Positions 189-55,543 of a DNA stretch of 64,000 bases are shown in pieces. Location: contig JAITLL010000047.1 of the NCBI GenBank assembly GCA_031277915.1, forward strand, positions 100,647 to 164,646, read 5' to 3'. Positions within the stretch are counted from its first letter, which is position 1. Each line of letters starts with the position of its first letter. This stretch comes from Acinetobacter sp. (GTDB taxonomy: Bacteria > Pseudomonadota > Gammaproteobacteria > Pseudomonadales > Moraxellaceae). The position numbers and the translations under genes are program-made. The notes beneath the pieces were generated by a model that was given only the letters and a program-made list of their open reading frames with translations, ran no database searches and was not told the origin of the DNA.

Positions 189-860
189 TTGGAATTTTCC
201 TTGAACTGGCAGTATATCCATAGTGTGTTGCCGCAATTTTTCTCTGCAACTTTGACCACGCTGAAAATTTCAATTATCAGCATTATTTTGGCGATTATTG
301 TAGGGCTAATTTGCAGCATTTTAATCACATATCGCGTGCGGGTGCTAAATAGAATTGCCCAGTTCTATATTGAGTTATCTCGAAATACCCCTTTATTAAT
401 TCAACTGTTCTTTTTGTATTACGGTTTGCCAAAACTCGGTATCAAAATTGATGGTTTTGCTTGTGGTGTGATCGGACTGACCTTTTTAGGCGGAAGCTAT
501 ATGGCTGAAGCTTTCCGAGCAGGTTTGCAGTCTGTTGCAAACGGGCAGATTGACTCAGCAAAAAGTATTGGTCTGCAACCGACTCAAATTTTTAGATATG
601 TCATTTTTCCTCAAGCACTGGCTATTTCAATTCCAGCAATTGGGGCAAATTGTCTATTTTTGATTAAAGAAAGTTCTGTGGTCAGTGCCATAGCTGTCGT
701 TGAACTGCTTTTTGTCACCAAAGACTTAATTGGCATGGACTATAAAACCACGGAAGCTTTGTTTTTACTCATCATGGCCTATCTGATTATTTTATTGCCT
801 GTATCTATTTTAACCAGTTATCTGGAGCACAGAAGTCGGAAGGTGAGCCATGGAACTTGA
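189..860 (+). CDS. Polar amino-acid ABC transporter permease (His/Glu/Gln/Cys family)
   Basis: This is an inner-membrane permease of the HisM/GltK type, about 223 residues, the usual length for the family. Several hydrophobic helices span roughly residues 15-45, 55-100 and 150-215. The EAA-type loop that contacts the ATPase is visible around residues 102-130 (EAFRAG, then DSAKSIGL). The start is a TTG; no strong ribosome-binding site is seen, so the exact start is uncertain. It overlaps the next permease by 11 bases, so the two are probably translationally coupled and form a heterodimer. The substrate cannot be read from the sequence; a polar amino acid is the family expectation. Confidence 0.88.
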   Translation: MEFSLNWQYIHSVLPQFFSATLTTLKISIISIILAIIVGLICSILITYRVRVLNRIAQFYIELSRNTPLLIQLFFLYYGLPKLGIKIDGFACGVIGLTFLGGSYMAEAFRAGLQSVANGQIDSAKSIGLQPTQIFRYVIFPQALAISIPAIGANCLFLIKESSVVSAIAVVELLFVTKDLIGMDYKTTEALFLLIMAYLIILLPVSILTSYLEHRSRKVSHGT

Positions 861-1515
861 TTATTTATTTCAAGCGAGTCACCTCGAGCGCTTAATGTGG
901 GGACTTTGGGCAACTGCAAAAATTGCTTTTATTTCGGTATTTTTCTCTGCGATTTTAGGCACGGTTTTAGGTGTCATTATGACTTCTAAAAACATAGTCG
1001 TTAAAGCGCTGTGTCGCCTGTATTTAGAAGCGATTCGAATCATTCCAATTTTAGTTTTACTGTTTGTGTTTTATTTCGGCTTTGCAACATGGTTTAACTG
1101 GCAGTTTTCCGCAATGTGGGTGTGCGTTGTTGTATTTGTTTTATGGGGTACGGCTGAAATGGGAGATTTGGTTCGTGCAGCCATTACTTCAATTGATCAG
1201 CATCAACGTGATTCGGCTTATGCGCTCGGACTTAACCATGTTCAAGCTTTAATCTATGTCATTTTTCCGCAAAGTCTAAAACGAGTAACACCAGGCGCGA
1301 TTAATTTATTTACCCGAATGGTGAAAACCAGCTCTTTGGCAGTGCTGATAGGTGTCGTTGAGGTCATTAAAGTTGGTCAGCAAATTATTGAAAATTCGCT
1401 GTTGACCGTGCCGAGTGCTTCTCTTTGGATTTATGGCTTTATTTTTATTTTGTATTTTCTGATTTGCTATCCCTTATCTCGTTTGGCTGCACATTTGGAA
1501 AAGGTCTGGGAGTAA
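850..1515 (+). CDS. Polar amino-acid ABC transporter permease, second subunit
   Basis: This is the second inner-membrane permease of the importer, 221 residues, paralogous to the preceding gene. Hydrophobic helices lie near residues 20-45, 60-95 and 185-212. The cytoplasmic EAA-type loop reads [20 protein letters not shown] around residues 109-128. The ATG overlaps the end of the first permease gene, and the ATPase follows after two bases, so the cassette is tightly packed. It would pair with the first permease to form the membrane channel. Confidence 0.9.
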
Positions 1516-1517
1516 TT

Positions 1518-2249
1518 ATGCCTTTGTTATCGATACAACAATTACAGAAATCATTTGCACAAAGTCATATTTTACAGGGCATTGATCTGGATGTAGAACA
1601 AGGAGAGGTGGTTGTTATTTTAGGCCCATCGGGCTGTGGTAAAAGTACCTTACTGCGCTGTATTAATGGGTTAGAACCAATTCAGGGTGGTGAGATTCGT
1701 TTAACTGGCTCAGGTGTGCTCGGTAAAGATGTGGACTGGACTAATGCTCGTCAAAAAATTGGCATGGTTTTTCAGAACTATGAGCTATTTGGGCATATGA
1801 ACGTCATTGACAACATTTTGCTTGGACCACTCAAAGTACAAAAACGTCACCGTGATGAAGCTGAACAAATAGCTGATGAGTTGTTAAAGCGAGTGGGGTT
1901 GTTTGAGCGAAAACTTGATTATCCACGACAACTTTCTGGTGGACAAAAACAGCGTATCGCTATTGTGCGTTCATTAGTTATGCAACCTAAAGTCATTTTG
2001 CTTGATGAAATTACCGCTGCACTTGACCCAGAAATGGTCAGGGAAGTGCTTGATGTAGTACTCAAGTTAGCGAATGAAGGAATGACCATGTTGATTGTGA
2101 CACATGAGATGTCCTTTGCCCGTAAGGTTGCCGACCGCATTATTTTTATGGATAAGGGCAAGATTATTGAACAGGCTTCACCAGAAGAATTTTTTGAACA
2201 GCCAAAAACAGAACGAGCGAAAGCCTTTCTAAATATTTTGTCGTACTAA
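1518..2249 (+). CDS. Amino-acid ABC transporter ATP-binding protein
   Basis: This 243-residue ATPase energises the importer on the cytoplasmic face. Walker A is GPSGCGKS at about residues 36-43, the Q-loop is near VFQNYE (84-89), the ABC signature LSGGQ is at 139-143, Walker B VILLDE at 159-164, and the switch histidine is in VTHEMS. The ATG at 1518, two bases after the permease stop, was chosen because the protein then begins like other GlnQ/HisP-type ATPases; an in-frame upstream extension would only overlap the permease. One small oddity is [11 protein letters not shown], where most relatives have LLDEPTSALDP. Confidence 0.93.
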
Positions 2250-2279
2250 ATTTTTATTATTTGAATCATGAGGAAGTGA

Positions 2280-3140
2280 ATGTTTAAACGTAATTCAATA
2301 AAAATATTAAGCAGTCTTGCCGTTGCTGGGGTGTTGTTAACAGCATGTAGTAAAACGCCATCCACTGAACAGGCAAGTAATACTCAAGTGGATGAATCTT
2401 TAGAACAAATCAAAAAAAATGGAGTTCTAAAAGTGGCCGTTTTTGCTGATGATCCGCCATTTGGTTATGTAGACAGTGCGGGGAATAATCAGGGCTTTGA
2501 TGTGGCTTTAGCAAAACGGGTGACCAAAGATTTGCTTGGTGATGAAAAGAAAGTTGAGTTTATTGTGACTGAAGCTTCAAATCGGGTGGAGTTCTTAAAA
2601 TCAAACCGTGCCGATGTGGTATTCGCAACATTTACAGTAACGCCTGAACGTAAAGAGGTTGTCGATTTTGCTGAGCCTTATTTAAAAGGTGCTTTTGGGA
2701 TAGTCTCACCTAAAGCCAAGCCGATTACAGATATTGCCCAATTAGAAGGTAAGACATTAATTGTCAATAAAGGCACAAGTTCAGATACCTACTTTACCAA
2801 GCATTATCCGAAAGTAAATTTACTGAAGTTTGAACGAAATTCGGATGCCTTCAAAGCATTAACTGATGGTCGTGGTGACGCAATTTCACAAGATAGTACT
2901 TATGCTTTGGCGTGGGCCGCGAAGAACCCAAGTTATGTAGCAGGCATTCAGTCTATTGGTGATCAAGAGTTTATTGCACCAGCAGTTAAAAAGGGTAATA
3001 CGCAATTATTGAACTGGCTTAATACTGAAATTAAGCAGCTCAGAACAAGTGGTGAAATTAATAAAATTTATGATGAAACCTTGAAACCAATTTACGGTGA
3101 CTCGGTTAATCCGAATGTGTTTTTAGATGTAGGCCAATAA
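2280..3140 (+). CDS. ABC transporter substrate-binding lipoprotein, family 3 (possibly cyst(e)ine or acidic amino acid)
   Basis: This 286-residue periplasmic binding protein starts with a lipoprotein signal peptide; the lipobox LTAC puts the lipidated cysteine at residue 23. The mature part is a two-lobe family 3 solute-binding domain with FGYVDSAG, NQGFDVALA and TPERKEVVDFAEPY motifs. In this family the TPER arginine contacts the ligand carboxylate. It lies directly downstream of the permeases and ATPase and probably feeds them. Relatives include CjaA/FliY-type cysteine or glutamate/aspartate binding proteins; the ligand is not decidable by eye. The next gene is a clear paralogue, so this is a tandem duplication. 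Confidence 0.9.
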   Translation: MFKRNSIKILSSLAVAGVLLTACSKTPSTEQASNTQVDESLEQIKKNGVLKVAVFADDPPFGYVDSAGNNQGFDVALAKRVTKDLLGDEKKVEFIVTEASNRVEFLKSNRADVVFATFTVTPERKEVVDFAEPYLKGAFGIVSPKAKPITDIAQLEGKTLIVNKGTSSDTYFTKHYPKVNLLKFERNSDAFKALTDGRGDAISQDSTYALAWAAKNPSYVAGIQSIGDQEFIAPAVKKGNTQLLNWLNTEIKQLRTSGEINKIYDETLKPIYGDSVNPNVFLDVGQ

Positions 3141-3222
3141 TTTTCGATATCGCTAGAGCAGTGTTTAAAAGTAGGCGCTGCGATTTTAAATAAGACTTTT
3201 ACAAGAACGATAGGGTGAAATA

Positions 3223-4089
3223 ATGACAACATTAACATTTCAAAACGTGAAGCATATTTTGGCTGCATCTTTACTGAGTTTAGGTTTAGTTGCATGTAAC
3301 AAAGGAACTCAGTCTACTGAAAAAACGGCTGATACCACACAAACTACGTCAAGTATTGAGCAGATCAAAAAGAATGGCGTGGTACGAATTGGCGTATTTA
3401 GTGATAAACCGCCGTTTGGATATTTAGATGCTCAAGGTAAAAATCAGGGCTTTGATGTAGAAATTGCCAAGCATGTCGCTAAAGATTTGCTGGGTGATGA
3501 AAACAAAGTTGAATTTGTTTTAACTGAAGCGGCTAATCGTGTCGAATATTTAAAAGCCAATAAAGTGGATATTATTTTTGCAAACTTTACAGTTACGCCA
3601 GAACGTAAAGAAGTAGTCGATTTTGCTAAGCCTTACTTAAAAGTGGCGCTAGGCGTGGTTTCTCCTAAAAGTCATCCGATTACCGATGTTGCTCAACTTA
3701 AAGATAAAACTTTATTGGTAAACAAAGGTACAACGGCTGATTCATTCTTCACTAAGACTCATCCTGAAATTAAACTACAAAAATATGAGCAAAACACTGA
3801 AACTTTTGATGCTTTAAAAGATGGCCGTGGTGCTGCACTTGCACATGATAACTTGCTGGTTTTAGCTTGGGCTAAAGAAAATCCAAATTACACCGTTGGC
3901 ATTACTAATTTAGGTGAGCAGGACTTAATTGCACCCGCAGTGAAAAAGGGTGATAAAGAGTTGCTTGACTGGTTGAACCAAGATTTAGAGAAACTGGCGA
4001 AAGAAGGCGTGATTCATCAGGCTTATGAAAAGACGTTAAAACCAGTGTATGGTGATACGATTAATCCAAAAGATCTATTGGTTGAGTAA
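3223..4089 (+). CDS. ABC transporter substrate-binding lipoprotein, tandem paralogue
   Basis: This second family 3 solute-binding lipoprotein has 288 residues and lipobox LVAC, with the cysteine at residue 25. It shares long stretches with its upstream neighbour, including NQGFDV, TVTPERKEVVDFA, LVNKGT, DGRG and IAPAVKKG. The ligand-binding architecture is therefore preserved, while the signal peptides and lobe surfaces differ. The 82-base gap between the two genes has no obvious terminator. Two binding proteins on one permease/ATPase set usually widen or tune substrate range, but a regulatory or redundant copy is also possible. Confidence 0.9.
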   Translation: MTTLTFQNVKHILAASLLSLGLVACNKGTQSTEKTADTTQTTSSIEQIKKNGVVRIGVFSDKPPFGYLDAQGKNQGFDVEIAKHVAKDLLGDENKVEFVLTEAANRVEYLKANKVDIIFANFTVTPERKEVVDFAKPYLKVALGVVSPKSHPITDVAQLKDKTLLVNKGTTADSFFTKTHPEIKLQKYEQNTETFDALKDGRGAALAHDNLLVLAWAKENPNYTVGITNLGEQDLIAPAVKKGDKELLDWLNQDLEKLAKEGVIHQAYEKTLKPVYGDTINPKDLLVE

Positions 4090-4323: not shown

Positions 4324-5259
4324 TTACTTTAACTTAAATAAAGTCGGCTCTGCTGCTAATTTATCTGCCAAATATTGAATCAACACACTCAATTTAGGCG
4401 GGACATGCCTTGTCGGTGGGTAAAGTAACCACAGCCCACCACTATAATAGGTTTTAAAATACCAATCTGGTAAAACCTGAACTAAAGTACCTTGTTGTAG
4501 ACCATGGCGTGCAACAAAGTAAGGCAAGCTCGCAATACCTAAATGCTGTAATGCGGCACTCAAACGCACACCCGTATGATTTGCAGCATAACGCCCACGC
4601 ACAGCCACACTGATCGATTTATTTCCTTGTTGAAATTTCCATTTTGAGTCACTGGCTTGTTCGCCCAAGTAAATACATTCATGCTGCTTTAAATCATGAG
4701 GATGGTTCGGTGTGCCATGCTTGGCCAAATACTCAGGTGTGGCACAAATCAAATGGTCAATATCAATGAGCTTTCGACCCATCAACCCACCCGGTGGTTG
4801 CTCTGTAATCCGAAGCGCTAGGTCAACTCCATCATCAATGAGGTCTATATAGCGATCTTCTAGAAGCATTTGAATATCAATTTTTGGGTAGCGTTCTAAA
4901 AATTCAGGTAAATGCGGATGAATCATAAAATGCCCCACAGCTTTGGGAACACTCATGCGAATAATACCTTCAGGTTCGATATGAAATTGCCCTGAACTTT
5001 CCATAACTGCTTGTGCAGCATTCACCATATCTAAACAGCGTTGATAGACCTGTTGCCCACTTTCACTTAAACGAAGTTTCCGTGTAGTCCGATAGAGTAA
5101 GCGGGTGCCTAAAGCACGTTCTAAACGGGCAATCGCACGACTAACAGCAGAAGGTGTGGTACCAAGCTGCCTTGCAGTTTCAGAAAAACTTTCTGACTCG
5201 ACTACCTTAACGAAGGTCGCCATTTCATTTAATAGACCCAGATTTTGATTTGTGCTCAT
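4324..5259 (-). CDS. LysR-family transcriptional regulator
   Basis: This 311-residue regulator has an N-terminal winged helix-turn-helix (about residues 13-70, with FSETARQLGTTPSAVSRAIA) and a C-terminal effector-binding domain (about 95-300). Family members normally bind the divergent promoter and respond to a small metabolite. It is divergent from the AlaX-like and LysE-type exporter genes, separated by 89 bases, and is therefore the likely regulator of that pair. The whole three-gene module lies between inverted repeat copies. The inducer is unknown; an amino acid would fit the neighbours. Confidence 0.9.
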   Translation of the reverse strand: MSTNQNLGLLNEMATFVKVVESESFSETARQLGTTPSAVSRAIARLERALGTRLLYRTTRKLRLSESGQQVYQRCLDMVNAAQAVMESSGQFHIEPEGIIRMSVPKAVGHFMIHPHLPEFLERYPKIDIQMLLEDRYIDLIDDGVDLALRITEQPPGGLMGRKLIDIDHLICATPEYLAKHGTPNHPHDLKQHECIYLGEQASDSKWKFQQGNKSISVAVRGRYAANHTGVRLSAALQHLGIASLPYFVARHGLQQGTLVQVLPDWYFKTYYSGGLWLLYPPTRHVPPKLSVLIQYLADKLAAEPTLFKLK

Positions 5260-5990: not shown

Positions 5991-6629
5991 ATGTGGCAGT
6001 TGTATGGACATGAGTTTTTAACGCTAGCACTCATTCACTTTATGGCGGTGATTTTACCGGGTCCAGATTTTGTGATTACGGTCAGACAAAGTGTGCGTTA
6101 TGGTTACCTAATTGGATGTCTGACCGCGATTGGTATTGGTGTTGGGATTTCGGTTCATGTCTTTTATACCTTGGTTGGGATTGGTTTTTTGATTCAGCAA
6201 AGTGAATGGCTCATGTCGCTTATTAGAGCAGCAGGAGCAGTGTATTTAATTTATTTGGGGTGGCAATGTTTACGTAGTCAGCCAAATACCAATATTGAAA
6301 TTAATGGTCAAACAGACAGTGATACTCCAAGTTTATTTAAATCTTTTACGATGGGTTTTCTCACCAATGCGTTAAACCCCAAAGCCACTATCTTTTTTCT
6401 GGCAATTTTTACGACGATTGTAAGTACGACCACACCGATGAAAGTTCAGGTCTTTTATGGGGTATGGATGTGTATGGTCAATGCCATCTGGTTTATGGTG
6501 GTGAGTGTACTGTTTGCACAGCCTATTGTACGTAAACGATTTTTGGAGTTTGGAGTTTACTTTGAGCGGGTAATGGGGGTGTTGTTAATTGGGATTGCAT
6601 TGAGATTGATTTGGGGATTGTTTGTTTAA
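5991..6629 (+). CDS. LysE/RhtB-family amino-acid exporter
   Basis: This 212-residue inner-membrane exporter has about six hydrophobic segments. The LysE/RhtB hallmark MAVILPGPDFVITVRQS (about residues 18-34) and the NALNPKATIFFLAIF motif (about 126-140) are both visible. The ATG follows the preceding stop codon with no gap, so it is almost certainly translationally coupled to the AlaX-like gene. Family members export homoserine, threonine, leucine, lysine or similar molecules. Pairing with a tRNA-editing protein suggests export of an amino acid that is mischarged when abundant, such as serine or an analogue; this is inference. Confidence 0.88.
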   Translation: MWQLYGHEFLTLALIHFMAVILPGPDFVITVRQSVRYGYLIGCLTAIGIGVGISVHVFYTLVGIGFLIQQSEWLMSLIRAAGAVYLIYLGWQCLRSQPNTNIEINGQTDSDTPSLFKSFTMGFLTNALNPKATIFFLAIFTTIVSTTTPMKVQVFYGVWMCMVNAIWFMVVSVLFAQPIVRKRFLEFGVYFERVMGVLLIGIALRLIWGLFV

Positions 6630-6718
6630 TTGCTGTGAGTATTTAAGGATATTACAGAAGTACGATTGTAGATATAGTTTTCACGACGGAGTCTTACCGT
6701 TTATACATCAGAATAACG

Positions 6719-6890: not shown

Positions 6891-7025
6891 TTTTAAATAA
6901 TAAGACTCCGCCGTGATAACCGCTAATGACTTTTAGTTCAGCCCAAAGCTATTCACAAGCTCTTAGATAGCACGACAGAGTATTATCGCTTAAAGTTTTA
7001 ATTTCTTCAGTCGCCTTCGGCTGGA

Positions 7026-7147
7026 CTTACTTTGGTTTCGCTCAAAGTAAGCAAAAGCATTGTCATCTGCAAAACCTGTCGACTTATTTCATTTAACTAG
7101 TATTTCACAGAAACAGAATCTTTTTGATGCTACGCAGGTTGCAGACG
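7026..7147 (+). repeat. Intergenic palindromic repeat, copy C (divergent)
   Basis: This has the same design as copies A and B but has diverged in sequence. A hairpin (CTTACTTT 7026-7033, AAAGTAAG 7044-7051) is followed by an 84-base core whose ends are CATCTGCAA (7064) and TTGCAGACG (ending 7147), with internal CCTG and CAGG words. The conserved layout with covarying hairpin arms suggests selection or copying of the structure rather than chance. Confidence 0.65.
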
Positions 7148-7243
7148 ACTTTTGCGCGAGTAAATGTAGTGCTAGGACTATTTGAGTTTTAATAGTTTCC
7201 TCATTGAAAAATTGAATTTTAATGATGGCAAATTAATTATAAA

Positions 7244-7269
7244 AAAAGACCGCTCAAAAGCAGTCTTTT
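7244..7269 (-). terminator. Rho-independent terminator of the encapsulin operon
   Basis: The arms AAAAGAC...GCT (7244-7254) and AGC...GTCTTTT (7259-7269) form a stem with one mismatch and a four-base loop. Read on the minus strand it follows the desulfurase stop by 17 bases and runs into a T tract, as expected for an intrinsic terminator. Confidence 0.8.
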
Positions 7270-7286
7270 CTAGTCTAGAAATAGAT

Positions 7287-9248
7287 TTAATTGCTACGCC
7301 TATTACGCGTCAGTTGATGTAAAACCGATACCAATAAATCAATTTCTTCAGTTGTATTATAAAAAGCCAAAGACGGACGCACGGTCTGTTCCACACCAAA
7401 ACGACGTAAAATTGGTTGTGCACAGTGGTGGCCAGAACGTACCGCAATACCATGTTGATTTAAAGCTTTGCCCACTTGTTCAGTTGAATAGCCTTGTAAG
7501 GTAAAGGACATGACACTGGCTTTGTGATGTGCGGTTCCGATCAAGCGTAAACCAGACACACTGCTCAGTGCATTTTGACCATATTCGAGTAGATCATGTT
7601 CATAGCGAGCAATGTTATGAATACCTAGACTTTCGACATATTCAAGTGCAGCGCCTAAGCCGACAGCATCGGCAATGTTTCCAGTTCCAGCTTCAAACTT
7701 GTTTGGTGCAGGTTGGTAAACCACCTGTTCGAAGGTAACATCTTGAATCATGTTACCTCCACCTTCCCAAACAGGCATGCTTTCTAGCAACTCTGGTTTT
7801 GCATAGACCGCGCCAATACCCGTCGGCCCAAACACTTTATGTCCAGAGAACACAAAAAAGTCTGTATCAAGGGCCTGAATATCGGTAGGGATGTGCGAAA
7901 CAGATTGAGCACCATCAACTAAAACACGTACACCTTTGGCATGAGCAATTTTAATGACTTCAGCAACAGGTGTGACTGTACCTAAAGCATTCGAAACTTG
8001 AGTAATCGAAAGTAGTTTAGTGCGCTCATTAATCAGTCTTGGCAACTCTTCTAAAATAATCTGACCTGTGTCATCGACAGGAATGACCCTTAATTTTGCT
8101 CCAGTTTTTTTAGTGAGTTGATACCAAGGCACAATATTGGCATGGTGCTCCAAGTGAGAAACAATGATTTCATCACCTTCACCAATATTTTGTTCGCCCC
8201 ATGTTTTTGCAATCAGGTTAATGCCTTCGGTTGTTCCCCGAACAAAGATAATTTCTTTGGAAGAGGGCGCACCAATGAATCGGGCAACTACATTTCTTGC
8301 ATATTCATAAGCATCGGTGGCACGAGCCGCTAATTCATGTGCAGCACGGTGAATATTCGAGTTTTCATGCTGATAAAAATAAGCAATCCGATCAATCACG
8401 CGTTGCGGTTTTTGTGTGGTCGCAGCATTATCCAACCAGACTAGAGGGCGGCCATTGACGCGTTCTTGTAAAATTGGGAAATCGCGGCGAATGGCGTGTA
8501 TATCTAGCGGTTGCGCACTGCTTGCTACAAAGGTGGGTTGTGATGGTTGATAATGACTATAACTTTGTCCACTTTGAGGCAAGTCTAAAAAATAAAATGC
8601 AGAGCTTGCCGAACTTTGGGTAGGCGTGTTCGTTGCAAAACGATCTTCAGCCAGCAATGATTTCAGCTGGTCACCATGGGGCAACTGAAAAGACTGCGCA
8701 ACTGAGTAATTATCCTCAACACCTTTAACTGAAGGTTCTGCTGTACTTGGAGCAGAAAAATCATTTAAAAAATAATACGGTGATTCACCTGCACCAGTAG
8801 GTACGCTTGGTTCAATGCGTGGCACATTGGGTTCACTATGAGCAGCTTGTGGCAAATGTGGTTCAAATGGTGGGCGCGGTAAATTCGCACCACCAACCAC
8901 AGGTGCAGACGCTACAATTCGGCGTTCAGGGTAATCTGGCAAATTTGGAATATGCTCAGGATATTCCGGATTGAGACTTTTCTGAAAGGCGATATTAGGC
9001 GCACGACCACTGAGTGCAGAAAATGGTTCACCTGGTTGTGGTGGGTGCGGTGGTGCTCCGACAGGTAAGTCCAAGTTAAGGCCCGATGGAGAAGCTGAAC
9101 TGCTTGAGCTTGGTAATGCTGAAAAAAACTCATTGGCAAGACAGGCAATCGTGGATTCATCGGGGAAGTTGGCTGGTGGGTTAACACCAGTCACTTCAGG
9201 CCCCGTTGGACTACCTTGCAGATTACTTGTAGTTAACTGGGTAGTCAT
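7287..9248 (-). CDS. Family 2A encapsulin cargo: SufS-type cysteine desulfurase with long disordered targeting arm
   Basis: This PLP enzyme converts cysteine to alanine plus enzyme-bound persulfide sulfur. Residues ~248-653 are a complete class V aminotransferase/SufS-like domain, with PLP lysine in FSGHK (K471) and catalytic cysteine in RSGHHCAQP (C609). Residues 1-247 are Pro/Ser-rich low-complexity sequence with short hydrophobic islands: CLANEFFSALP (~36-46), SPYYFLNDFS (~156-165) and SSAFYFLDLP (~215-224). Such arms load desulfurase cargo into family 2A shells. The start at 9248 was chosen because a GGAGG motif precedes it; it overlaps the shell gene by 26 bases, indicating coupled translation. 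An upstream in-frame ATG at 9272 is less likely. Confidence 0.95.
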   Translation of the reverse strand: MTTQLTTSNLQGSPTGPEVTGVNPPANFPDESTIACLANEFFSALPSSSSSASPSGLNLDLPVGAPPHPPQPGEPFSALSGRAPNIAFQKSLNPEYPEHIPNLPDYPERRIVASAPVVGGANLPRPPFEPHLPQAAHSEPNVPRIEPSVPTGAGESPYYFLNDFSAPSTAEPSVKGVEDNYSVAQSFQLPHGDQLKSLLAEDRFATNTPTQSSASSAFYFLDLPQSGQSYSHYQPSQPTFVASSAQPLDIHAIRRDFPILQERVNGRPLVWLDNAATTQKPQRVIDRIAYFYQHENSNIHRAAHELAARATDAYEYARNVVARFIGAPSSKEIIFVRGTTEGINLIAKTWGEQNIGEGDEIIVSHLEHHANIVPWYQLTKKTGAKLRVIPVDDTGQIILEELPRLINERTKLLSITQVSNALGTVTPVAEVIKIAHAKGVRVLVDGAQSVSHIPTDIQALDTDFFVFSGHKVFGPTGIGAVYAKPELLESMPVWEGGGNMIQDVTFEQVVYQPAPNKFEAGTGNIADAVGLGAALEYVESLGIHNIARYEHDLLEYGQNALSSVSGLRLIGTAHHKASVMSFTLQGYSTEQVGKALNQHGIAVRSGHHCAQPILRRFGVEQTVRPSLAFYNTTEEIDLLVSVLHQLTRNRRSN

Positions 9249-10155
9249 GATATTTGTCCACCTCCACATCATCTAATACTGCCAGCGCATCATCAGTGAG
9301 TACTGCAAGTGAGCAATATAATGAGATTAGATACGACGCAATCGCGTTACGGTTGATTCCCATAAAGCGTACCGAAAGCCCTGGTGACTGTTCTCCAGCA
9401 AGGCCTGGTTGGAACAACCCAACAATGCCTTGACGCTTTTCACCAACACGAAGCAGCAAGATTTTAGTTTTGCCATCTTCAACCGGAATTTTATTGGATG
9501 GAATAAGTGGAATACCGCGCCATGTAATGAACTGAGAACCAAATAAGCTAACCGTTGGAGGTGGTACGCCACGACGTGTACATTCACGGCCAAATGCTGC
9601 AATCGCATCAGGATGTGCTAGGAAAAAACCTGGTTCTTTCCAGACTTTACGCAGCAAATCATCGAAATCATCTGGAGTCGGTGGGCCATTTAAAGTTGAA
9701 ATACGTTGGTCATCTGTCACACTCGCCAATAAACCATATTCAGGGTTATTGATAAGCTCACTTTCTTGACGTTCTTTAATGGTTTCAATGGTTAAACGAA
9801 GTTGTTCTTTAATCTGGTCATGTGGGCTGCTGTAAAGGTCAGCAACACGTGTATGTACATCTAAAACAGTTGATACACCATTTAAAAAGTATTCGCGTGG
9901 CTCAGGGTCATAATCAACAAAAGTCTGAGGTAATGTTGCTTCATCACGCTGAGTGCAAGCCACCTGAATGTCATCGGTATTATTTACACGGTTTAGGCGA
10001 TAAATACCTGCTTCAACAGGAAGCCATTGAAGTAAGTGAGTCAGCCATCTGGGAGTAATTGTAGAAAGTTGGGGAGCAGTTTTGGTTGCATTGGCCAGTT
10101 GACGGGCCGCATGGTCCCCAAGAGCAAGTTGGGCTTTGTCTGTATTTTTCGCCAT
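9223..10155 (-). CDS. Family 2A encapsulin nanocompartment shell protein (SrpI-like)
   Basis: This 310-residue protein has the HK97-like fold seen in SrpI-type encapsulins. It self-assembles into a hollow icosahedral protein shell in the cytoplasm. Recognisable parts are the N-terminal arm, the VDYDPEPREYFLNGV and RVADLYSSPHDQIKEQLRL segments, and the conserved middle and C-terminal part (PPPTVSLFGSQFITWRG, RVGEKRQGIVGLFQPGLAGE, GINRNAIASYL). The length fits family 2A without the cyclic-nucleotide-binding insert of family 2B. Its direct partner is the overlapping desulfurase gene. In published work on Acinetobacter and Synechococcus relatives, as I recall it, the loaded shell stores elemental sulfur; whether this copy does so is inference from homology. 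Confidence 0.95.
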   Translation of the reverse strand: MAKNTDKAQLALGDHAARQLANATKTAPQLSTITPRWLTHLLQWLPVEAGIYRLNRVNNTDDIQVACTQRDEATLPQTFVDYDPEPREYFLNGVSTVLDVHTRVADLYSSPHDQIKEQLRLTIETIKERQESELINNPEYGLLASVTDDQRISTLNGPPTPDDFDDLLRKVWKEPGFFLAHPDAIAAFGRECTRRGVPPPTVSLFGSQFITWRGIPLIPSNKIPVEDGKTKILLLRVGEKRQGIVGLFQPGLAGEQSPGLSVRFMGINRNAIASYLISLYCSLAVLTDDALAVLDDVEVDKYHDYPVNYK

Positions 10156-10403
10156 GAATCTTTTTCCTTATTACAGTGGCTTGGTAAATCAAAAATTAAA
10201 AATTCTAGGATGGATATAAACTAGAATTAGTTCTGGTTTTAAAATAAAAGAGCGTTATAAATTTTTAAAATAAGAAGTTTATTTATTAAAAAATCTATTT
10301 TTAAAATAAAAATATATTTAAATTAGAAATAAGAATTTAATTAATTTGCTAAGTTTTTAGTATTTATTTGTCTCCTTATCTATTTATTTAATATCTATAG
10401 TTT
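10156..10403 (-). promoter_or_regulatory. AT-rich gap with perfect palindrome upstream of the encapsulin gene
   Basis: These 248 bases separate the serine acetyltransferase from the shell gene and contain no gene. A perfect inverted repeat, AATTCTAG (10201-10208) and CTAGAATT (10221-10228) with 12 bases between, sits 46-73 bases before the shell start codon. The rest is extremely AT-rich. A dedicated promoter with an operator for a dimeric regulator is plausible. The shell and cargo could thus be controlled separately from the two upstream genes. Confidence 0.5.
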
Positions 10404-11345
10404 TTAACTGGGAATATGATTTTTTTGATAAGACTCATTTGGTGACTGTAAAATCTGGCTACCCGCAGCAATACTATGTGTAAGCCAGACATTACCCCCA
10501 ATAATAGAACCTCGGCCAATCGTAATACGACCTAAAATCGTGGCACCTGCATAGATCACAACGTCATCTTCAACAATTGGATGGCGTGTATAGTCTTTTT
10601 TCAAAGCACCATCATCATTCGTTTCAAAACGTTTAGCTCCAAGTGTTACGGCCTGATAAATACGAACACGTTCCCCAATGACACTGGTTTCACCAATCAC
10701 CACACCTGTACCATGATCAATGAAAAATCCTTTACCAATTTTTGCACCGGGATGAATATCAATGCCCGTTGCAGAATGTGCCAACTCAGAAATAATGCGA
10801 GACAATAGAGGCACTTGAGCATAGAGCTGATGTGCAATACGGTGGTAAATAATCGCAAAGATGCCTGGATAGCAGAGTAATACTTCATCTACACTATGTG
10901 CTGCCGGATCACCTTCATAAGCCGCTCGCACATCGCCATCTAAAAGACGACGTATAGAAGGTAGTGTGTTGGCAAAATCCTGCACAATATTTTGAGCAAG
11001 TTCCTGTGGTTGTTGGGCTGTGCTCAAATGACCCAAATGTCGTTTTGCCTCATAATTTAAAGCCAGTTGTACCTGAGCATGTAAAGCTGTCAGCACTCGA
11101 TTTAAAGTGTAGGCAATATAGGAATCTTCAGTTTCTTGGCGTAAGTCAGCAGGGCCTAAACGCATTGGAAATAAAATGCCGCAAAGGTCATCTAAAATAG
11201 CTTTTAAAGCTTCTTTAGACGGAAGTTCACGGCCCCCAAATTCTTTGGTTCTGTGCTGTTGCTGACGCCAGTCATGCCTTGCTTGTTGTAAGCCCTGTAC
11301 AACAGCATTAATGTTCCATTGAGTCACAAGCTTTCCTTGATTCAC
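10404..11345 (-). CDS. Serine O-acetyltransferase (EpsC/SrpH type) of the encapsulin locus
   Basis: This enzyme transfers acetyl from acetyl-CoA to L-serine, giving O-acetylserine, the precursor of cysteine. The 313-residue protein has a helical N-terminal domain (~1-190) and a left-handed beta-helix with hexapeptide repeats (~195-300). Key segments are TGIDIHPGAKIGKGFFIDHG and VVIGETSVIGERVRIYQAVTLGA. Its length and placement match SrpH-type proteins found beside family 2A encapsulins rather than classic CysE. It lies 18 bases downstream of the rhodanese gene and probably supplies the cysteine that the encapsulated desulfurase consumes. Confidence 0.92.
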   Translation of the reverse strand: MNQGKLVTQWNINAVVQGLQQARHDWRQQQHRTKEFGGRELPSKEALKAILDDLCGILFPMRLGPADLRQETEDSYIAYTLNRVLTALHAQVQLALNYEAKRHLGHLSTAQQPQELAQNIVQDFANTLPSIRRLLDGDVRAAYEGDPAAHSVDEVLLCYPGIFAIIYHRIAHQLYAQVPLLSRIISELAHSATGIDIHPGAKIGKGFFIDHGTGVVIGETSVIGERVRIYQAVTLGAKRFETNDDGALKKDYTRHPIVEDDVVIYAGATILGRITIGRGSIIGGNVWLTHSIAAGSQILQSPNESYQKNHIPS

Positions 11346-11363
11346 TGAAAATTTATTGAAGTT

Positions 11364-11873
11364 TTAGTCTTGTTGCCAAGGGAGTTGATGAATACGCCAG
11401 CCGTTTTTCTGATTACGTTGTTGGTTATCATCTAAGTCACCTTCAAAGCCTTCAAGAACGTTATAAATGTGCTCAAAACCTGCATTAAATGCGGCTTCGG
11501 CTGCTTGTGCTGAACGGTTGCCACTACGACATAGCAAAAGAATGGTTTTATCTTTGCCAACTTTTGATTCAAGCTCTTTTAAAAAACGTGGATTGCGGTT
11601 AAACGATGTGCCTGTTGCCCAAGCGACATGAACACTTTTAGGGACATAACCTACAAATTTACGTTCTTCATTGGTGCGCACATCAACTAAAACAGCTTCT
11701 TCTTGTTGTATGAGTTGCCATGCATCAGTAGGTGATAAACTGCCACTAAAATTCAATTTATGGTCTTGTGCGTATTGCTGTGCTTTAGAAAGAATTTCTT
11801 GGGCTGAAAAGGATGGATTTGAATCATTTGAGATAAAGCTTTGCGGAGCTTCTGTATTTAATTTAGCGTTCAT
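11364..11873 (-). CDS. Rhodanese-like sulfurtransferase of the encapsulin locus
   Basis: This is a single rhodanese domain (~residues 45-160) in a 169-residue protein. The active-site loop is LLLCRSGNRSAQAA with the persulfide-forming cysteine at residue 115, and VDVRTNEER lies near residues 63-71. Such proteins move sulfane sulfur between acceptors. It is the first gene of the minus-strand sulfur operon, followed after 18 bases by serine acetyltransferase. A role in loading, releasing or detoxifying sulfur from the compartment is reasonable inference. The N-terminal 40 residues show no recognised domain. Confidence 0.9.
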   Translation of the reverse strand: MNAKLNTEAPQSFISNDSNPSFSAQEILSKAQQYAQDHKLNFSGSLSPTDAWQLIQQEEAVLVDVRTNEERKFVGYVPKSVHVAWATGTSFNRNPRFLKELESKVGKDKTILLLCRSGNRSAQAAEAAFNAGFEHIYNVLEGFEGDLDDNQQRNQKNGWRIHQLPWQQD

Positions 11874-12070
11874 TGAATATATCCTTATCTTCGATTCAGA
11901 TTGTTATTGTTCAATTTACGCGTTTTTAAATATAAGCAAAAATAAGGAATATCTATTTATATATATTATTTTTATAAATAAGAATGGGGCATATTTTTAT
12001 AAAAAAGTATTAATTAAGCTTATATAGTTCTTTAATTAAAATTGATGGAATAGTAATTTTAATAGTTAGT
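11874..12070 (-). promoter_or_regulatory. Upstream region of the encapsulin operon
   Basis: This AT-rich non-coding region precedes the rhodanese gene. An inverted repeat, TATTTATA (11954-11961) and TATAAATA (11973-11980) with 11 bases between, has the geometry of a LysR-family site. In such AT-rich sequence this may arise by chance. No confident promoter hexamers were assigned. Confidence 0.3.
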
Positions 12071-12107
12071 AAAAAACCGTGTGAATTAAAATAATCCACA
12101 CGATTTT
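12071..12107 (-). terminator. Rho-independent terminator after the SDR gene
   Basis: CGTGTG (12078-12083) pairs with CACACG (12097-12102), extended by flanking A/T pairs after one mismatch. Read on the minus strand, the hairpin follows the SDR stop codon and ends in a run of six T residues. Confidence 0.75.
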
Positions 12108-12112
12108 AAAAA

Positions 12113-12850
12113 TTAAGCAAATCCACCATTTACCCGAATGACTTGTGAATTTACCCAGCGTCCATCTGGGCCAGCTAACATAGCAATTACACTGGCAATT
12201 TCTTCAGGTGTTCCGATTCGTTCTAATGGAGCGAGTTTTGCAATAGCTGCCACTTGCTCATCAGTTTTTCCATTATAAAAAAGGTCAGTTCCTATCGGGC
12301 CGGGTGCAACTGCATTTACAGTAATATTTCGGCCGCGTAACTCATTTGCTAACACATGTACTAAGCCTTCTACACCTGCTTTTGAAGCAATATAGGGGCC
12401 ATATGCCGGAAAAGATTTAGCAATTACGCTGGTCGAAAGGGCAATGATTCGGCCACCATCTGGAACTGTTTCAGCTGCATGAGCCAATATTAAAAACGCA
12501 CCACGTAAATTGGTATGAATTACTTTATCGAAATCTGGCAGACTTTCAGGGGTAATTTTTGCCATAGGCATAATACCGGCACTATGAACTACTACATCTA
12601 ATTGACCATTTACGGCTTTTGCTTCTTGAAATAAACGACCCACCTCATATTCATTTGCTACGTCGGCTTGAATAGCAGAAGCTTGACCACCTTGTTCCAC
12701 AATATGATCTACAGTTGCTTGGGCATGCACCTTATTGCCAGCATAGTTAACAATGACATAAAAGCCATCTTGGGCTAAGCGTTCAGCAATTGCACGACCA
12801 ATACCGCGTGATGCACCTGTAACAAGAGCTGTCTTTTTTGAAATATTCAT
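12113..12850 (-). CDS. Short-chain dehydrogenase/reductase (FabG-like)
   Basis: This 245-residue NAD(P)-dependent oxidoreductase has a Rossmann fold. The cofactor motif TGASRGIG is near residues 11-18, the NxAG-equivalent HSAG near 89-92, and the catalytic YxxxK as YIASK near residues 151-155. The substrate is not evident. It is divergent from a LysR gene across about 125 bases with a candidate operator. That arrangement, a quinone- or aldehyde-type SDR controlled by a divergent LysR, is common in this genus. Confidence 0.9.
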   Translation of the reverse strand: MNISKKTALVTGASRGIGRAIAERLAQDGFYVIVNYAGNKVHAQATVDHIVEQGGQASAIQADVANEYEVGRLFQEAKAVNGQLDVVVHSAGIMPMAKITPESLPDFDKVIHTNLRGAFLILAHAAETVPDGGRIIALSTSVIAKSFPAYGPYIASKAGVEGLVHVLANELRGRNITVNAVAPGPIGTDLFYNGKTDEQVAAIAKLAPLERIGTPEEIASVIAMLAGPDGRWVNSQVIRVNGGFA

Positions 12851-48445: not shown

Positions 48446-48578
48446 TATTTATGTTTTTTATAAATAAATTATAAAAATCTATTAGAATAAAATCATATTT
48501 TTTTTGGGGTTTATGTTATAAAGAAAACCTAAAAATTGATTTAGTATAAAAATAAATAAAATGCTGGTTGATATTTTT

Positions 48579-51687: not shown

Positions 51688-51960
51688 AGAGTTAGAAGTA
51701 ATAAGCAAAAATAACAAAAGCTTTTTTGTTTCATGTCTCATTATGTGTTTTTTGAATATCCTTTTTAATTATTGATATATAAGTATTTAAATTTTATGGC
51801 TAGCCTGTAAGTTTGTTTGAAATTTGCTTTTTACCAAAAGATAAAAACTTATAAGGAAAAGTTATTTATAAAAAATAGATAAGCAACTCATATTTTTTTA
51901 TTTTTCATTATAAAGCTGGCTGCATACCATGAGCTTATATTATTGAAAGATCATGAAGTT
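51688..51960 (+). promoter_or_regulatory. Leader and promoter region of the tau operon
   Basis: No gene is seen in this 273-base AT-rich region. It should hold the tau promoter, which in relatives is activated by CysB/Cbl under sulfate limitation; no confident operator could be picked out. A TATATAAGTATTTAAAT-like AT stretch around 51775-51795 may help activation. The region ends 10 bases after a short AAAGATCATG stretch before the chosen tauA start. Confidence 0.3.
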
Positions 51961-52983
51961 ATGAGCACGAAGACCAAACCGTTGATTATCACGGCAATTG
52001 TGGTAGTCGCAATTGTTGCATTTATCGTATGGCAAAATAAGAAAGACAATAATACAAGTGCTTCAGTTCGCGACAGCAAACCTGTCGTAATTGCCTACCA
52101 AACAGGGGTTGACCCAAGCAAAGTTGCGCAGGCCAATGGGGAATATGAAAAACATAGTCAACGTAACATTCAATGGAAAAAATTTGATGCGGGTTCAGAT
52201 GTTGTCAACGCACTTGCTTCAGGCGATGTCATACTTGGCAATATTGGTTCAAGTCCACTTGCTGCTGCGGCAAGCCGTGATTTACCGATTGAAGTCTTCT
52301 TAATTACATCAAAACTTGGTGGATCTGAAGCATTAGTGGTAAGTAATAAATCAGGCATTAAAACTCCTCAAGATTTAATTGGCAAAACCATTGCTGTACC
52401 GTTTGTTTCAACCACGCATTACAGTCTTTTGTCTGCACTTACACATTGGAACATTCCAGAAGACAAAGTCAAAATTATTAACCTGCGTCCACCTGAAATT
52501 TCAGCTGCTTGGGAACGTGGTGATATTGATGCTGCCTATGTTTGGGAACCTGCTTTAAGTAAAGCCAAAGCATCTGGTACGGTTTTAACCGACTCAAAAC
52601 AAGTGGGTGAATGGGGCGCTCCAACTTATGACTTATGGGTGGTACGTAAAGACTTTGCCGAGAAAAATCCTGATTTCTTAAAAGCTTTTGTCCAAACTAC
52701 GCTTGAGCAGCTTGAAAAATATAACCAAAACCCAGCCGCTTACGTTAAAGATGCCGATAATGTGCAAAAAATTGCGCAGCTCACAGGTTCTGATGCAAAA
52801 GATATCCCACTTTTATTAAGTGGAAACATTTACCTTGACCATGCTCAGCAAAAACAAACTCTAGATGGTGAATTTGCGCAAAATATTTTTGATACAGCCA
52901 AGTTCTTAAAAGGTCAGGGCAAGGTCGATCAACTGAAAGCCGATTATAAAGGCAATGTGAATTCTTCATTTTTGCAGCCTTAA
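51961..52983 (+). CDS. tauA: Taurine/sulfonate ABC transporter substrate-binding protein
   Basis: This 340-residue periplasmic binding protein of the NMT1/TauA type has an N-terminal hydrophobic helix (about residues 8-25, no lipobox). Typical segments are VVIAYQTGVDPSKVAQANG, LGNIGSSPLAAAASRDLPI and AYVWEPALSKAKASG. The ATG at 51961 was chosen over one six codons upstream because it places the signal helix normally. It starts the tauABCD operon, which imports taurine and releases sulfite for cysteine synthesis when sulfate is scarce. Confidence 0.92.
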   Translation: MSTKTKPLIITAIVVVAIVAFIVWQNKKDNNTSASVRDSKPVVIAYQTGVDPSKVAQANGEYEKHSQRNIQWKKFDAGSDVVNALASGDVILGNIGSSPLAAAASRDLPIEVFLITSKLGGSEALVVSNKSGIKTPQDLIGKTIAVPFVSTTHYSLLSALTHWNIPEDKVKIINLRPPEISAAWERGDIDAAYVWEPALSKAKASGTVLTDSKQVGEWGAPTYDLWVVRKDFAEKNPDFLKAFVQTTLEQLEKYNQNPAAYVKDADNVQKIAQLTGSDAKDIPLLLSGNIYLDHAQQKQTLDGEFAQNIFDTAKFLKGQGKVDQLKADYKGNVNSSFLQP

Positions 52984-52992
52984 GGAGTTGTC

Positions 52993-53787
52993 ATGAGTGT
53001 ACTAGAAGCCAAACATATTCATCTGACTTTTCCTAAACAGCAAAAGCCAGTTTTACAAGACATTAACCTAACGATTGAAGAAGGTTCTTTAACCGTCATT
53101 TTGGGCGAGTCAGGTTGTGGCAAAACAACTTTGCTTAATATCTTGGCAGGGTTTCAAAAGCCGAGTTCAGGTGATGTGCTTGTAAATCATGAAGTGGTAA
53201 ATGGACCAGATGTAACCCGCGCTGTGGTATTTCAGGATCATGCACTGCTTCCTTGGTTGAATGTTGCAGATAATGTTGGCTTCGCTTTGCAGTTAAAAGG
53301 TTTAAAGCACGCAGAGATTGAAGCACAAGTGAACGCAATTTTAAAAATTGTAGGTTTAAGTCACGTTGAAAAAGCCAATATTTGGGAACTTTCAGGTGGT
53401 ATGAAACAACGTGTTGGTATTGCCAGAGCTTTGATTAGTCACGCGCCGTTTATTTTATTAGATGAACCTTTTGCTGCATTAGATGCCTTTACTCGTGAAA
53501 ACATGCAGCAGTTAGTACTCGATTTATGGATTCAACAAAATAAAAGCTTCTTTTTAATTACGCATGACATCGAAGAAGCATTGTTGCTCAGTAATCAGTT
53601 AGTTCTGATGACAGCGCATCCAGGAAAAATTGTAGAAACTCTACATCTCGATTTTGCTAATCGATATCGTCAGGGTGAGTCTATTCGCTCAATTAAATCA
53701 GGCTCTCAATTTATTCAGCTCAGAGAACAGCTATTTGAAAGTTTAAGGGCACAAAAAGAAAGCGGTAAGGAGGCGTTAACCACATGA
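52993..53787 (+). CDS. tauB: Taurine ABC transporter ATP-binding protein
   Basis: This 264-residue ATPase has Walker A GESGCGKT (residues ~38-45), the Q-loop in VFQDHALLPWLNV, signature LSGGMKQR (~134-141) and Walker B FILLDEPFAALD. The LPWLNV stretch after the Q-loop is characteristic of the TauB/SsuB group. It follows tauA by nine bases and overlaps tauC by four bases. Confidence 0.94.
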   Translation: MSVLEAKHIHLTFPKQQKPVLQDINLTIEEGSLTVILGESGCGKTTLLNILAGFQKPSSGDVLVNHEVVNGPDVTRAVVFQDHALLPWLNVADNVGFALQLKGLKHAEIEAQVNAILKIVGLSHVEKANIWELSGGMKQRVGIARALISHAPFILLDEPFAALDAFTRENMQQLVLDLWIQQNKSFFLITHDIEEALLLSNQLVLMTAHPGKIVETLHLDFANRYRQGESIRSIKSGSQFIQLREQLFESLRAQKESGKEALTT

Positions 53788-54653
53788 GTACTAAAGATAA
53801 CGTCTATGATTATGACAAAGCAGAGTTGAAACTTAAGCCAGATGTGCAAACAGAAAAAGCTTCATTTTTATCGTCATTTTTTGAGAAGCATCGCACTTTG
53901 GCAGTTAGCATAATTAGTGTGGGAAGTGTGGTTGCACTCTGGTTCCTCATTACTGCTTTGCATGTTGTACCTGAGCTATTTTTACCAAGCCCACAGGCAG
54001 TCTGGCAAAAATTTATATCGGTCAGCCAAGAAGGCTTTATGAAAGCAACTTTGTGGCAACACTTGGCCGCTAGTATCTCTCGAGTATTTTTAGCTTTGAT
54101 TGCTGCTGTAGTGATTGGTGTTCCACTGGGTTTATGGATGGGCCTGAACAAATGGGTTCGTGCTGTTCTAGATCCTTTGGTTGAATTATTACGTCCAATC
54201 CCACCGTTAGCTTATTTGCCATTACTGGTGATTTGGTTCGGTATTGGCGAAACCACAAAAGTGCTTTTGATTTTCTTCTCGATTTTGGCGCCTGTCATTA
54301 TTAGTAGTGCACATGGTGTATTAAGCCATCAGCTTAATCGTGAACGTGCAGCATTGTCGCTAGGAGCAAGTCAGTCACAAGTATTTTGGCATGTCATTTT
54401 GCCGACGGCGTTACCTCATATTATTACTGGTATCCGTATTGGTTTAGGGGTGGGCTGGTCAACATTAGTTGCAGCAGAATTGGTTGCAGCAGACCGCGGT
54501 ATTGGTTTTATGGTGCAATCGGCAGCGCAGTTCTTAATTACCGATACGGTGATTCTAGGCATTATTGTGATTGCGATTGTCGCAGTTAGTTTTGAGCTGT
54601 TTTTACGTTGGTTACAAAAACAGTTTTCTCCTTGGTATGGTCAGCAGTTGTAG
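53784..54653 (+). CDS. tauC: Taurine ABC transporter permease
   Basis: This 289-residue inner-membrane permease has about six hydrophobic helices (first at ~40-60). The EAA-type loop is RERAALSLGASQSQVFWHVI near residues 171-195, and the conserved LVELLRPIPPLAYLPLLVIW segment is present. The ATG lies in a 4-base overlap with tauB and follows an AAGGAGG ribosome-binding site inside tauB. An N-terminal cytoplasmic tail of ~35 residues is a little longer than in E. coli TauC. Confidence 0.93.
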   Translation: MSTKDNVYDYDKAELKLKPDVQTEKASFLSSFFEKHRTLAVSIISVGSVVALWFLITALHVVPELFLPSPQAVWQKFISVSQEGFMKATLWQHLAASISRVFLALIAAVVIGVPLGLWMGLNKWVRAVLDPLVELLRPIPPLAYLPLLVIWFGIGETTKVLLIFFSILAPVIISSAHGVLSHQLNRERAALSLGASQSQVFWHVILPTALPHIITGIRIGLGVGWSTLVAAELVAADRGIGFMVQSAAQFLITDTVILGIIVIAIVAVSFELFLRWLQKQFSPWYGQQL

Positions 54654-54661
54654 TAAAGAAG

Positions 54662-55543
54662 ATGAATACAGTCGTAGCAAATTTAAATATTGAAGTGATC
54701 AAGCCTACCATTGGCGCAATTATTCACGATATTGATTTGAATGCGTTAAATGAACAGACAACGCAACAAATCCAGCAGGCTTTGCTTGATCATCAGGTTA
54801 TTTTTTTTCGAAAGCAACAATTAGCGCCGCAAGCACAAGCAGACTTGGCACGTAGTTTCGGTACCTTACATGTGCACCCGATTTATCCCTCAATTGAAGA
54901 TGTGCCTGAAGTGATGGTACTCGACAGTTGGAAACAAGATTTACGCGACAATGAGCTTTGGCACACAGATGTGACTTTTAGTCAAACTCCACCATTGGGT
55001 TGTGTTTTACAAGCCATTAAAATTCCACCTGTAGGCGGCGATACGTTGTGGTCGAGCAACATAGCAGCTTTTAAAGGACTTCCGCTCGAGCTACAGCAAA
55101 AATTACGTGGCTTAACTGCAACACACGACATTCGTAAGTCTTTTCCACTTGAACGTTTTGCTCATAACGCAGAAGAGCGTGAAAAGCTTTTGCAAACATT
55201 TAAGCGTAACCCGCCAGTGGTTCACCCCGTGGTGCGTACCCATCCAGTTACAGGTGAGCCTTTGTTGTTTATAAGTGAGGGTTTTACCACTCGAATTAAT
55301 GAGTTACCTGAACAAGAAAGCGAGCAATTACTTAATTTCTTGTTTGAACATGCGACCCAAGAGCAGTTTCATTTGCGTTGGAAGTGGCAAGATGGTGATG
55401 TCGCGATTTGGGATAACCGTTGCACACAACATAAAGCATTATTTGATTATGGCGATGCCCATCGTATCATGCACCGTGCAACCATTAATGGTGATGTGCC
55501 ATTTTATAAAAACGAACAACTGCCTGAGTTAGCCGAAGCTTAG
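54662..55543 (+). CDS. tauD: Taurine dioxygenase
   Basis: This 293-residue Fe(II)/2-oxoglutarate dioxygenase splits taurine to aminoacetaldehyde and sulfite. The iron ligands are seen as WHTDVTF (H101, D103) and DNRCTQH (H257); the 2-oxoglutarate-binding arginine is in IMHRATI (R272). These positions are within two residues of those in E. coli TauD. The ATG at 54662 lies 8 bases after tauC; longer frames run back into tauC. Confidence 0.94.
   Translation: MNTVVANLNIEVIKPTIGAIIHDIDLNALNEQTTQQIQQALLDHQVIFFRKQQLAPQAQADLARSFGTLHVHPIYPSIEDVPEVMVLDSWKQDLRDNELWHTDVTFSQTPPLGCVLQAIKIPPVGGDTLWSSNIAAFKGLPLELQQKLRGLTATHDIRKSFPLERFAHNAEEREKLLQTFKRNPPVVHPVVRTHPVTGEPLLFISEGFTTRINELPEQESEQLLNFLFEHATQEQFHLRWKWQDGDVAIWDNRCTQHKALFDYGDAHRIMHRATINGDVPFYKNEQLPELAEA

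Follow-up and report, generated by a model that had tools for sequence, protein, structure and literature searches.

An Acinetobacter encapsulin of solved structure (PDB 8t6r) reportedly stores elemental sulfur, a finding said to be that of Benisch et al. 2024 in Sci Adv. PMC11946847 names A. baumannii 118362 as the strain of this encapsulin and refers its structure to the work on storage of elemental sulfur. The second described system is that of Synechococcus elongatus (PDB 6x8m; Nichols et al. 2021, PMC8049743), from which the shell protein SrpI, its loading through the N-terminus of the cysteine desulfurase cargo CyD, the desulfurase activity and induction by starvation are known; when sulfate is lacking, SrpI and CyD both increase. 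Here we analyzed a 64,000-nucleotide stretch of Acinetobacter sp. DNA (contig JAITLL010000047.1, hereafter the window), which carries a predicted four-gene encapsulin operon on its minus strand (7287..11873). This operon is the already described Acinetobacter Family 2A system and not a new one, since in an end-to-end alignment its shell differs from chain 8t6r_A at just 3 of 310 residues (307/310 identical; the two systems were compared by shell only). What looks new is an addition to the known system, apparently unreported: a taurine-type promoter element upstream of the operon, which also precedes the taurine operon tauABCD. Because the element is shared with a taurine scavenging operon, we consider it probable that this sulfur compartment is made under sulfur shortage, likely through a LysR activator of the Cbl/CysB type.

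The family assignment rests on several models. The shell protein (9223..10155, 310 aa, SrpI-like) matches PF19307 (353 bits, Pfam) and scores 541 bits against the Family 2A model NF041162 encap_f2a (cut-off 380, NCBIfam). The 2B model NF041163 also matches, over its last ~240 positions only, with 429 bits (cut-off 400), below the 2A score; with 310 aa and PF19307 as the only Pfam domain, the shell has no inserted cyclic-nucleotide-binding domain, which places it in 2A and not 2B. The S. elongatus shell belongs to the same family (509 bits against the shell of the window). The cargo CyD (7287..9248, 653 aa) has its ATG within the shell gene, the mechanical open reading frame (ORF; 7287-9272) starting further upstream, and it scores 914 bits against the Family 2A cargo model NF041166 f2_encap_cargo1 (cut-off 800). 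Its catalytic domain (residues 251-646) is like that of SufS cysteine desulfurases (TIGR01979, 546 bits, cut-off 475), to which CyD adds a long cargo N-terminus. These N-terminal ~245 residues hold the docking-type motifs LANEFFS, SPYYFLND and AFYFLDLP, and the SufS-type pyridoxal phosphate domain follows downstream. The S. elongatus cargo also carries LANEFFS and YYFL-type motifs, reported as LARLANEFFS and AASPYYFLDG in an N-terminal region described as disordered (PMC8049743). Two YFL-type docking motifs were observed in 46 of 60 Acinetobacter CyDs versus 2 of 64 elsewhere, and the pair perhaps provides a two-point attachment to the shell.

These results agree with a sequence-only reading of the window, which had listed four minus-strand genes (rhodanese, serine acetyltransferase, shell, desulfurase). 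All four are present in the ORF translations of the window, transcribed in the order rhodanese, serine O-acetyltransferase (SAT), shell, CyD, and the catalytic residues had been named correctly: C115 of the rhodanese (LLCRSGNRS), and K471 (SGHK) and C609 (RSGHHCA) of CyD in 653-aa numbering. The family, cargo and gene roles it gave are backed by the family models, the near-identical solved shell and neighborhood conservation; the fold check it had proposed for the shell is settled by 8t6r and by the match to 6x8m. The shell gene occurs in 61 of 176 Acinetobacter genomes, this one included, and our Acinetobacter set comprises 61 loci from 60 other genomes, one of which (G047) contributes two. 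The neighborhood comparison across Acinetobacter, also suggested by that reading, was run on these loci and found the gene content of the cassette conserved (tblastn: CyD 61/61, rhodanese 58/61, SAT 57/61).

Ahead of the rhodanese gene, most Acinetobacter loci have in common a conserved element of 69 bp, aligned in register and with a TTATTT core. It was found by pattern in 42 of the 61 loci (three of the 61 have no rhodanese in the stretch) and by eye in three more. Twenty of these 45 loci were aligned over 69 columns without internal gaps (alignment A1), which yielded the sequence-only model R1; a second model, R2, was trained on both kinds of site, operon and tau, with the tau site of the window in its training set. 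The operon element of the window (11915..11980, minus strand) scores 41.8 bits with R1 (E 3e-10) and 34.7 bits with R2 (E 5e-8) in whole-genome searches. The second-best R1 match in the same genome, absent from the R1 training set and about 40 kb from the operon element, is located upstream of tauABCD (51863..51930, plus strand; 21.4 bits, E 7.7e-4, model positions 2-69) and stops 30 nt short of the ATG at 51961, the likely start of tauA. Besides the operon, it is the sole R1 match with E < 0.01; the third-ranked match is partial, with 15.6 bits and E 0.049, and the fourth covers positions 3-65 with 14.4 bits and E 0.11. With R2, only the tau and operon sites have E < 0.05 (52.1 and 34.7 bits), and the third match, a partial one, has 14.7 bits.

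The genes downstream of this second element (51943..55543, plus strand) encode a taurine ATP-binding cassette (ABC) transporter (51943-52983, 52993-53787, 53784-54653) and a taurine dioxygenase (54608-55543). TauA (TIGR01729, 400.7 bits, cut-off 304.25), TauC (NF007545, 362.7, cut-off 342) and TauD (NF007104, 485.8, cut-off 313) exceed their cut-offs; TauB stays below its own (NF008421, 326.6 bits, cut-off 357). In E. coli, tauABCD is under Cbl/CysB control. A taurine operon is likewise present in the window, and the element in front of it also stands in front of the encapsulin operon. Judged from sequence, the encapsulin operon is a predicted member of a taurine-type regulon, and the 69-bp element may consist of a putative activator site plus a -10 region. 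One clear homologue of CysB/Cbl is encoded in the genome and shares 45% identity with the CysB of E. coli. Seven LysR-type ORFs of the window were considered separately as candidates for Cbl; in their aligned portions they reach only ~20-27% identity to either CysB or Cbl, and none is an obvious Cbl.

Across the genus, R1 matches of at least 30 bits are present in 48 of the 61 cassette genomes and in 0 of 115 Acinetobacter genomes that lack the cassette. In all but two cases (46/48) the shell gene is no more than 2 kb away, the exceptions being a match on another contig (G045) and one at ~11 kb (G047); 28 of the 48 are outside the training set, many of these in close relatives of training rows. 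Genome G007 (locus L047), a training row, has the cassette and a match of 42.4 bits. Such a match is missing from 13 cassette genomes: G059, G083, G087 and the ten in which SAT is inverted (the cysE-divergent clade). We also took 20 further genus matches in rank order, with the tau match of the window and two loci with divergent tau genes excluded: 12 are positioned 10-33 nt upstream of a tauA ORF, including those in the cassette-less genomes G144 and G067. At the tau-divergent loci the element was found on the rhodanese side in 16 of 16 and on the tau side in 15 of 16 (13 at E < 0.05, two weak). Dinucleotide shuffles of five tau upstream regions never scored as well as the native sequence (0/200 in each); for the tauA upstream region of the window the score was 31.6 versus a shuffle mean of -15.4 (sd 6.5). 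In 40 control regions (796 kb), all from Acinetobacter, the best R2 match had 13.2 bits and was partial. The cysE-divergent clade, which is outside the training set, has an R2 match at 7 of 10 loci; these matches score 10.2-20.4 bits, share the strand of the rhodanese gene and precede it by 52-121 nt, and four of the seven exceed the best control.

Several observations weigh against placing the compartment under taurine-type control. Eight of the 20 further matches are away from tauA, five of them inside ORFs and the remaining three in or near unrelated genes or without a gene call downstream. One tau-divergent locus, L054, has no tau-side match, and at L090, a seventeenth tau-adjacent locus, R1 matches neither the rhodanese nor the tau side (R2 gives a weak match of 11.9 bits upstream of tauA). 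R2 matches are missing at L081, at L089 and at the rhodanese of L090; in the cysE-divergent clade three of ten loci have none and three more are no better than the best control, the controls themselves coming from a single genus. The ABC importer at 189-4089, with 188 bp of upstream sequence in the window, lacks the element (116/200 shuffles as good). The loci are related by descent, and counts over them are not independent events. Cbl or CysB is a putative activator of the element. In a study of an A. baumannii mutant starved of sulfur (PMC13344012), expression of cbl, cysTWA and organosulfur genes went up; this mutant lacks part of the operon, and neither 'encapsul' nor 'taurine' occurs in the main text. 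Finally, the assembly reaches 91.8% completeness, and each search of it scored 150 candidates, against 28 per genome in the genus search; because of this incompleteness and these limits, a regulon of two members may be too small. The element was also sought in the gap between SAT and shell, where it scored no better than shuffles (57/200 as good), and in the 90 bp upstream of an alaX-like gene (11/200 as good).

We propose the following mechanism. The shell protein would assemble into a capsid, and the presumably disordered N-terminus of CyD would draw the cargo in. When sulfate and cysteine run short, an activator presumed to be of the Cbl/CysB type would switch on tauABCD and the encapsulin operon together. 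The SAT of the operon would then make O-acetylserine as the acceptor for scavenged sulfide. O-acetylserine is also the precursor of the inducer acetylserine. CyD would turn part of the cysteine into sulfur within the shell, which may also relieve cysteine feedback, and the sulfur would accumulate there, as reported for close relatives. Persulfide sulfur would probably be returned to metabolism by the rhodanese. In this manner, the compartment might buffer scavenged sulfur without leaking sulfide and without tying up cysteine. A narrower version, which we offer tentatively and hold to be somewhat short of an even chance, has one activator whose only targets are tauABCD and the encapsulin operon: sulfonate sulfur would pass into cysteine and on into a shell reserve reopened by the rhodanese, and the compartment would be a store, not a sink for excess. 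SAT would then possibly supply both the acceptor and the acetylserine inducer.

The shared element offers a concrete lead on why Acinetobacter stores sulfur and makes the question testable: it indicates the probable timing of shell synthesis and leaves one growth condition and one regulator to examine. If the proposal is true, a sulfur-storing organelle would be tied to the use of organic sulfonates. No report of a taurine-type element at an encapsulin operon was found in the literature searched, in which one paper, a review of bacterial microcompartments by its title, has both 'encapsulin' and 'taurine'; Benisch et al. 2024 was not covered, and we make no claim of priority. Such an element is not mentioned in the text of PMC8049743 available to us for the S. 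elongatus system. In the passages of PMC10878099 consulted, sulfur regulation is named in general terms only. In PMC8547003, tauAB and cys genes change together under a drug, in passages that leave the encapsulin unnamed; 'membrane protein I' and 'desulfurase' are absent from its main text. A study of the type VI secretion system (PMC11348943) lists the shell gene among its expression data in a table.

Other explanations were weighed against sulfur shortage. The compartment could instead be a sink for excess, made at high cysteine or sulfide and detoxifying these as elemental sulfur. A cysteine-consuming desulfurase fits such a role, as does a cassette adjoining importers able to bring in excess cystine; we nevertheless regard it as unlikely, given a promoter element that matches a scavenging system, the taurine operon, and the starvation induction of SrpI in Synechococcus (PMC8049743). 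An extra SAT would also seem pointless under cysteine excess.

A redox role, with persulfide or elemental sulfur as an antioxidant reserve and sulfur-source control secondary, draws on general background knowledge and appears slightly less plausible still. A Pseudomonas sulfur-starvation study does mention induced antioxidant defenses in its abstract (PMC12581299), but the element and the neighbors found here point to sulfur sources, with oxidative-stress regulator sites not searched for. Least probable of all is that the element is an AT-rich promoter type common in Acinetobacter without a common regulator: the two elements of the window are AT-rich (GC content 0.14 and 0.22) and some weaker model matches fall inside unrelated ORFs, but the five shuffle tests and the scores of the 40 random regions speak against it, and the strong genus matches are confined to two operons.

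SAT (10404..11345, minus strand, GTG start), a hexapeptide-repeat protein that we take to be SrpH-like, falls below the cysE equivalog cut-off of TIGR01172 (166 vs 210.65 bits) and above that of NF041874 (161.5 vs 150 bits); on these scores it is classed as a divergent second SAT and not as the housekeeping CysE. The rhodanese (11364..11873, minus strand, 169 aa) has a single domain that matches PF00581 (59.7 bits), an N-terminal extension of ~45 aa and the catalytic CRSGNR loop with C115. A housekeeping cysE adjoining an RNA methyltransferase gene is present elsewhere in the genome, and IscS is also encoded. The sequence-only reading had called the operon a self-contained pathway: its four pathway genes stand, but the self-containment does not, as the operon is without a cysteine synthase and the genome has a separate CysE and IscS. 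In A. baumannii, two active serine acetyltransferases are described, cysE, whose reported gene neighbors fit locus L092, and one called SAT (PMC13344012). By elimination the latter probably corresponds to the operon SAT, in a main text that does not use 'encapsul'. No SufE was found in the 91.8% complete assembly, and CyD therefore seems to be without a classical SufE partner in its own genome.

Within the operon, the 3' end of the shell gene and the 5' end of the CyD gene overlap by 26 nt (9223..9248, minus strand). The overlap is conserved in 59 of 61 Acinetobacter loci, CyD starts being set by alignment to the CyD of the window, and suggests translational coupling. SAT and shell are separated by an AT-rich gap of 248 bp (10156..10403) with no match to the tau-type element; its AT-rich blocks, partly conserved and kept in several lineages, may represent a putative second promoter that would let the cell produce shell and cargo independently of SAT. 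Scans for terminators and sigma-70 promoters across 7000-12200 gave no signal above shuffles, an Rfam scan of the whole window returned zero families at cut-off, and no second shell copy was found in the genome.

Outside Acinetobacter, the shell was detected at E 1e-100 in 5 of 368 class-sample and 12 of 397 phylum-sample genomes, one genome being in both; a contig scan of relatives retained the best 80 of 580, 26 of these Acinetobacter. Seventy loci outside the genus have rhodanese in 61, SAT in 61 and CyD in 66 (tblastn), and some cassette loci are truncated by contig ends. Two genomes are unusual. In G047 there are two shell-CyD cassettes of Family 2A, separated by 20 kb (C1:1812217-1813137, L077, and 1832329-1833249, L076), whose shells are 90% and 92% identical to that of the window; a mixed shell is possible. 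In G135 (L091) the shell gene (C21:294934-295864) appears as two overlapping pieces with a frame break, and the rest of the cassette (CyD, SAT and rhodanese) is retained together with its promoter element.

Importer genes were counted near the cassette when at least two genes of one system lay within about 9-10 kb. Of the Acinetobacter loci, 34 of 61 have a sulfur importer beside it, as do 19 of the 70 loci from elsewhere, compared with 2 of 40 Acinetobacter control regions picked at a distance from the cassette, one with a sulfate and one with a methionine system; restricted to stretches of at least 19 kb, the counts are 33/56 and 16/53. They comprise taurine/sulfonate importers (18 Acinetobacter loci, 12 others), an ABC type as in the window, counted as a sulfur importer by resemblance only (16 and 1), and sulfate (0 and 7), methionine (0 and 5) and cystine (0 and 1) importers. 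Peptide/glutathione-type importers were seen at 0 Acinetobacter loci, 2 others and 0 controls, and other amino-acid, polyamine or sugar importers at 0, 1 and 1. The Acinetobacter counts go back to a small number of arrangements shared by descent (those of the A. baumannii and tau-divergent groups, of L073 and of L090). Pooling the loci under looser criteria yields 56 of 131, spread over 29 gene orders; we prefer the stricter count per system. According to Andreas and Giessen, SAT and rhodanese are enriched near Family 2A (PMC8346489), and Nichols et al. report that Family 2A genes adjoin sulfur metabolism genes (PMC8049743); 'transporter' was not found in the main text of either. The importer detail extends this known sulfur-gene neighborhood.

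The importer of the window itself (189..4089, plus strand) consists of two permeases, an ATPase and two binding proteins; it is polar-amino-acid/cystine-like, with a putative substrate, and reaches no transporter equivalog cut-off. It recurs near the cassette at L073, on the opposite side, and at L191 of Pseudomonas carbonaria. A LysR regulator and a LysE/RhtB-type exporter (4324-5259 and 5991-6629) flank the CyD end in 31 of 61 Acinetobacter loci; the pair was also seen in two otherwise different neighborhoods, and a cysteine or acetylserine exporter is possible. An AprA-like flavoprotein (NF006131) stands with a GntR regulator beside the cassette at L046 (4632-6446), at L050 and at the Pseudomonas loci L191 and L197; overall, the flavoprotein occurs at 10 of 61 Acinetobacter and two Pseudomonas loci. 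The intergenic region behind CyD holds a 27-nt inverted repeat, 81% complementary, with arms 190 nt apart (6677-6703 and 6894-6920). Upstream of tauABCD, with one major facilitator superfamily gene between, is an NtaA/DmoA-family flavin mononucleotide-dependent monooxygenase (48561-49970; 549.5 bits, cut-off 279.7), and the tau stretch thus possibly contains more organosulfur genes.

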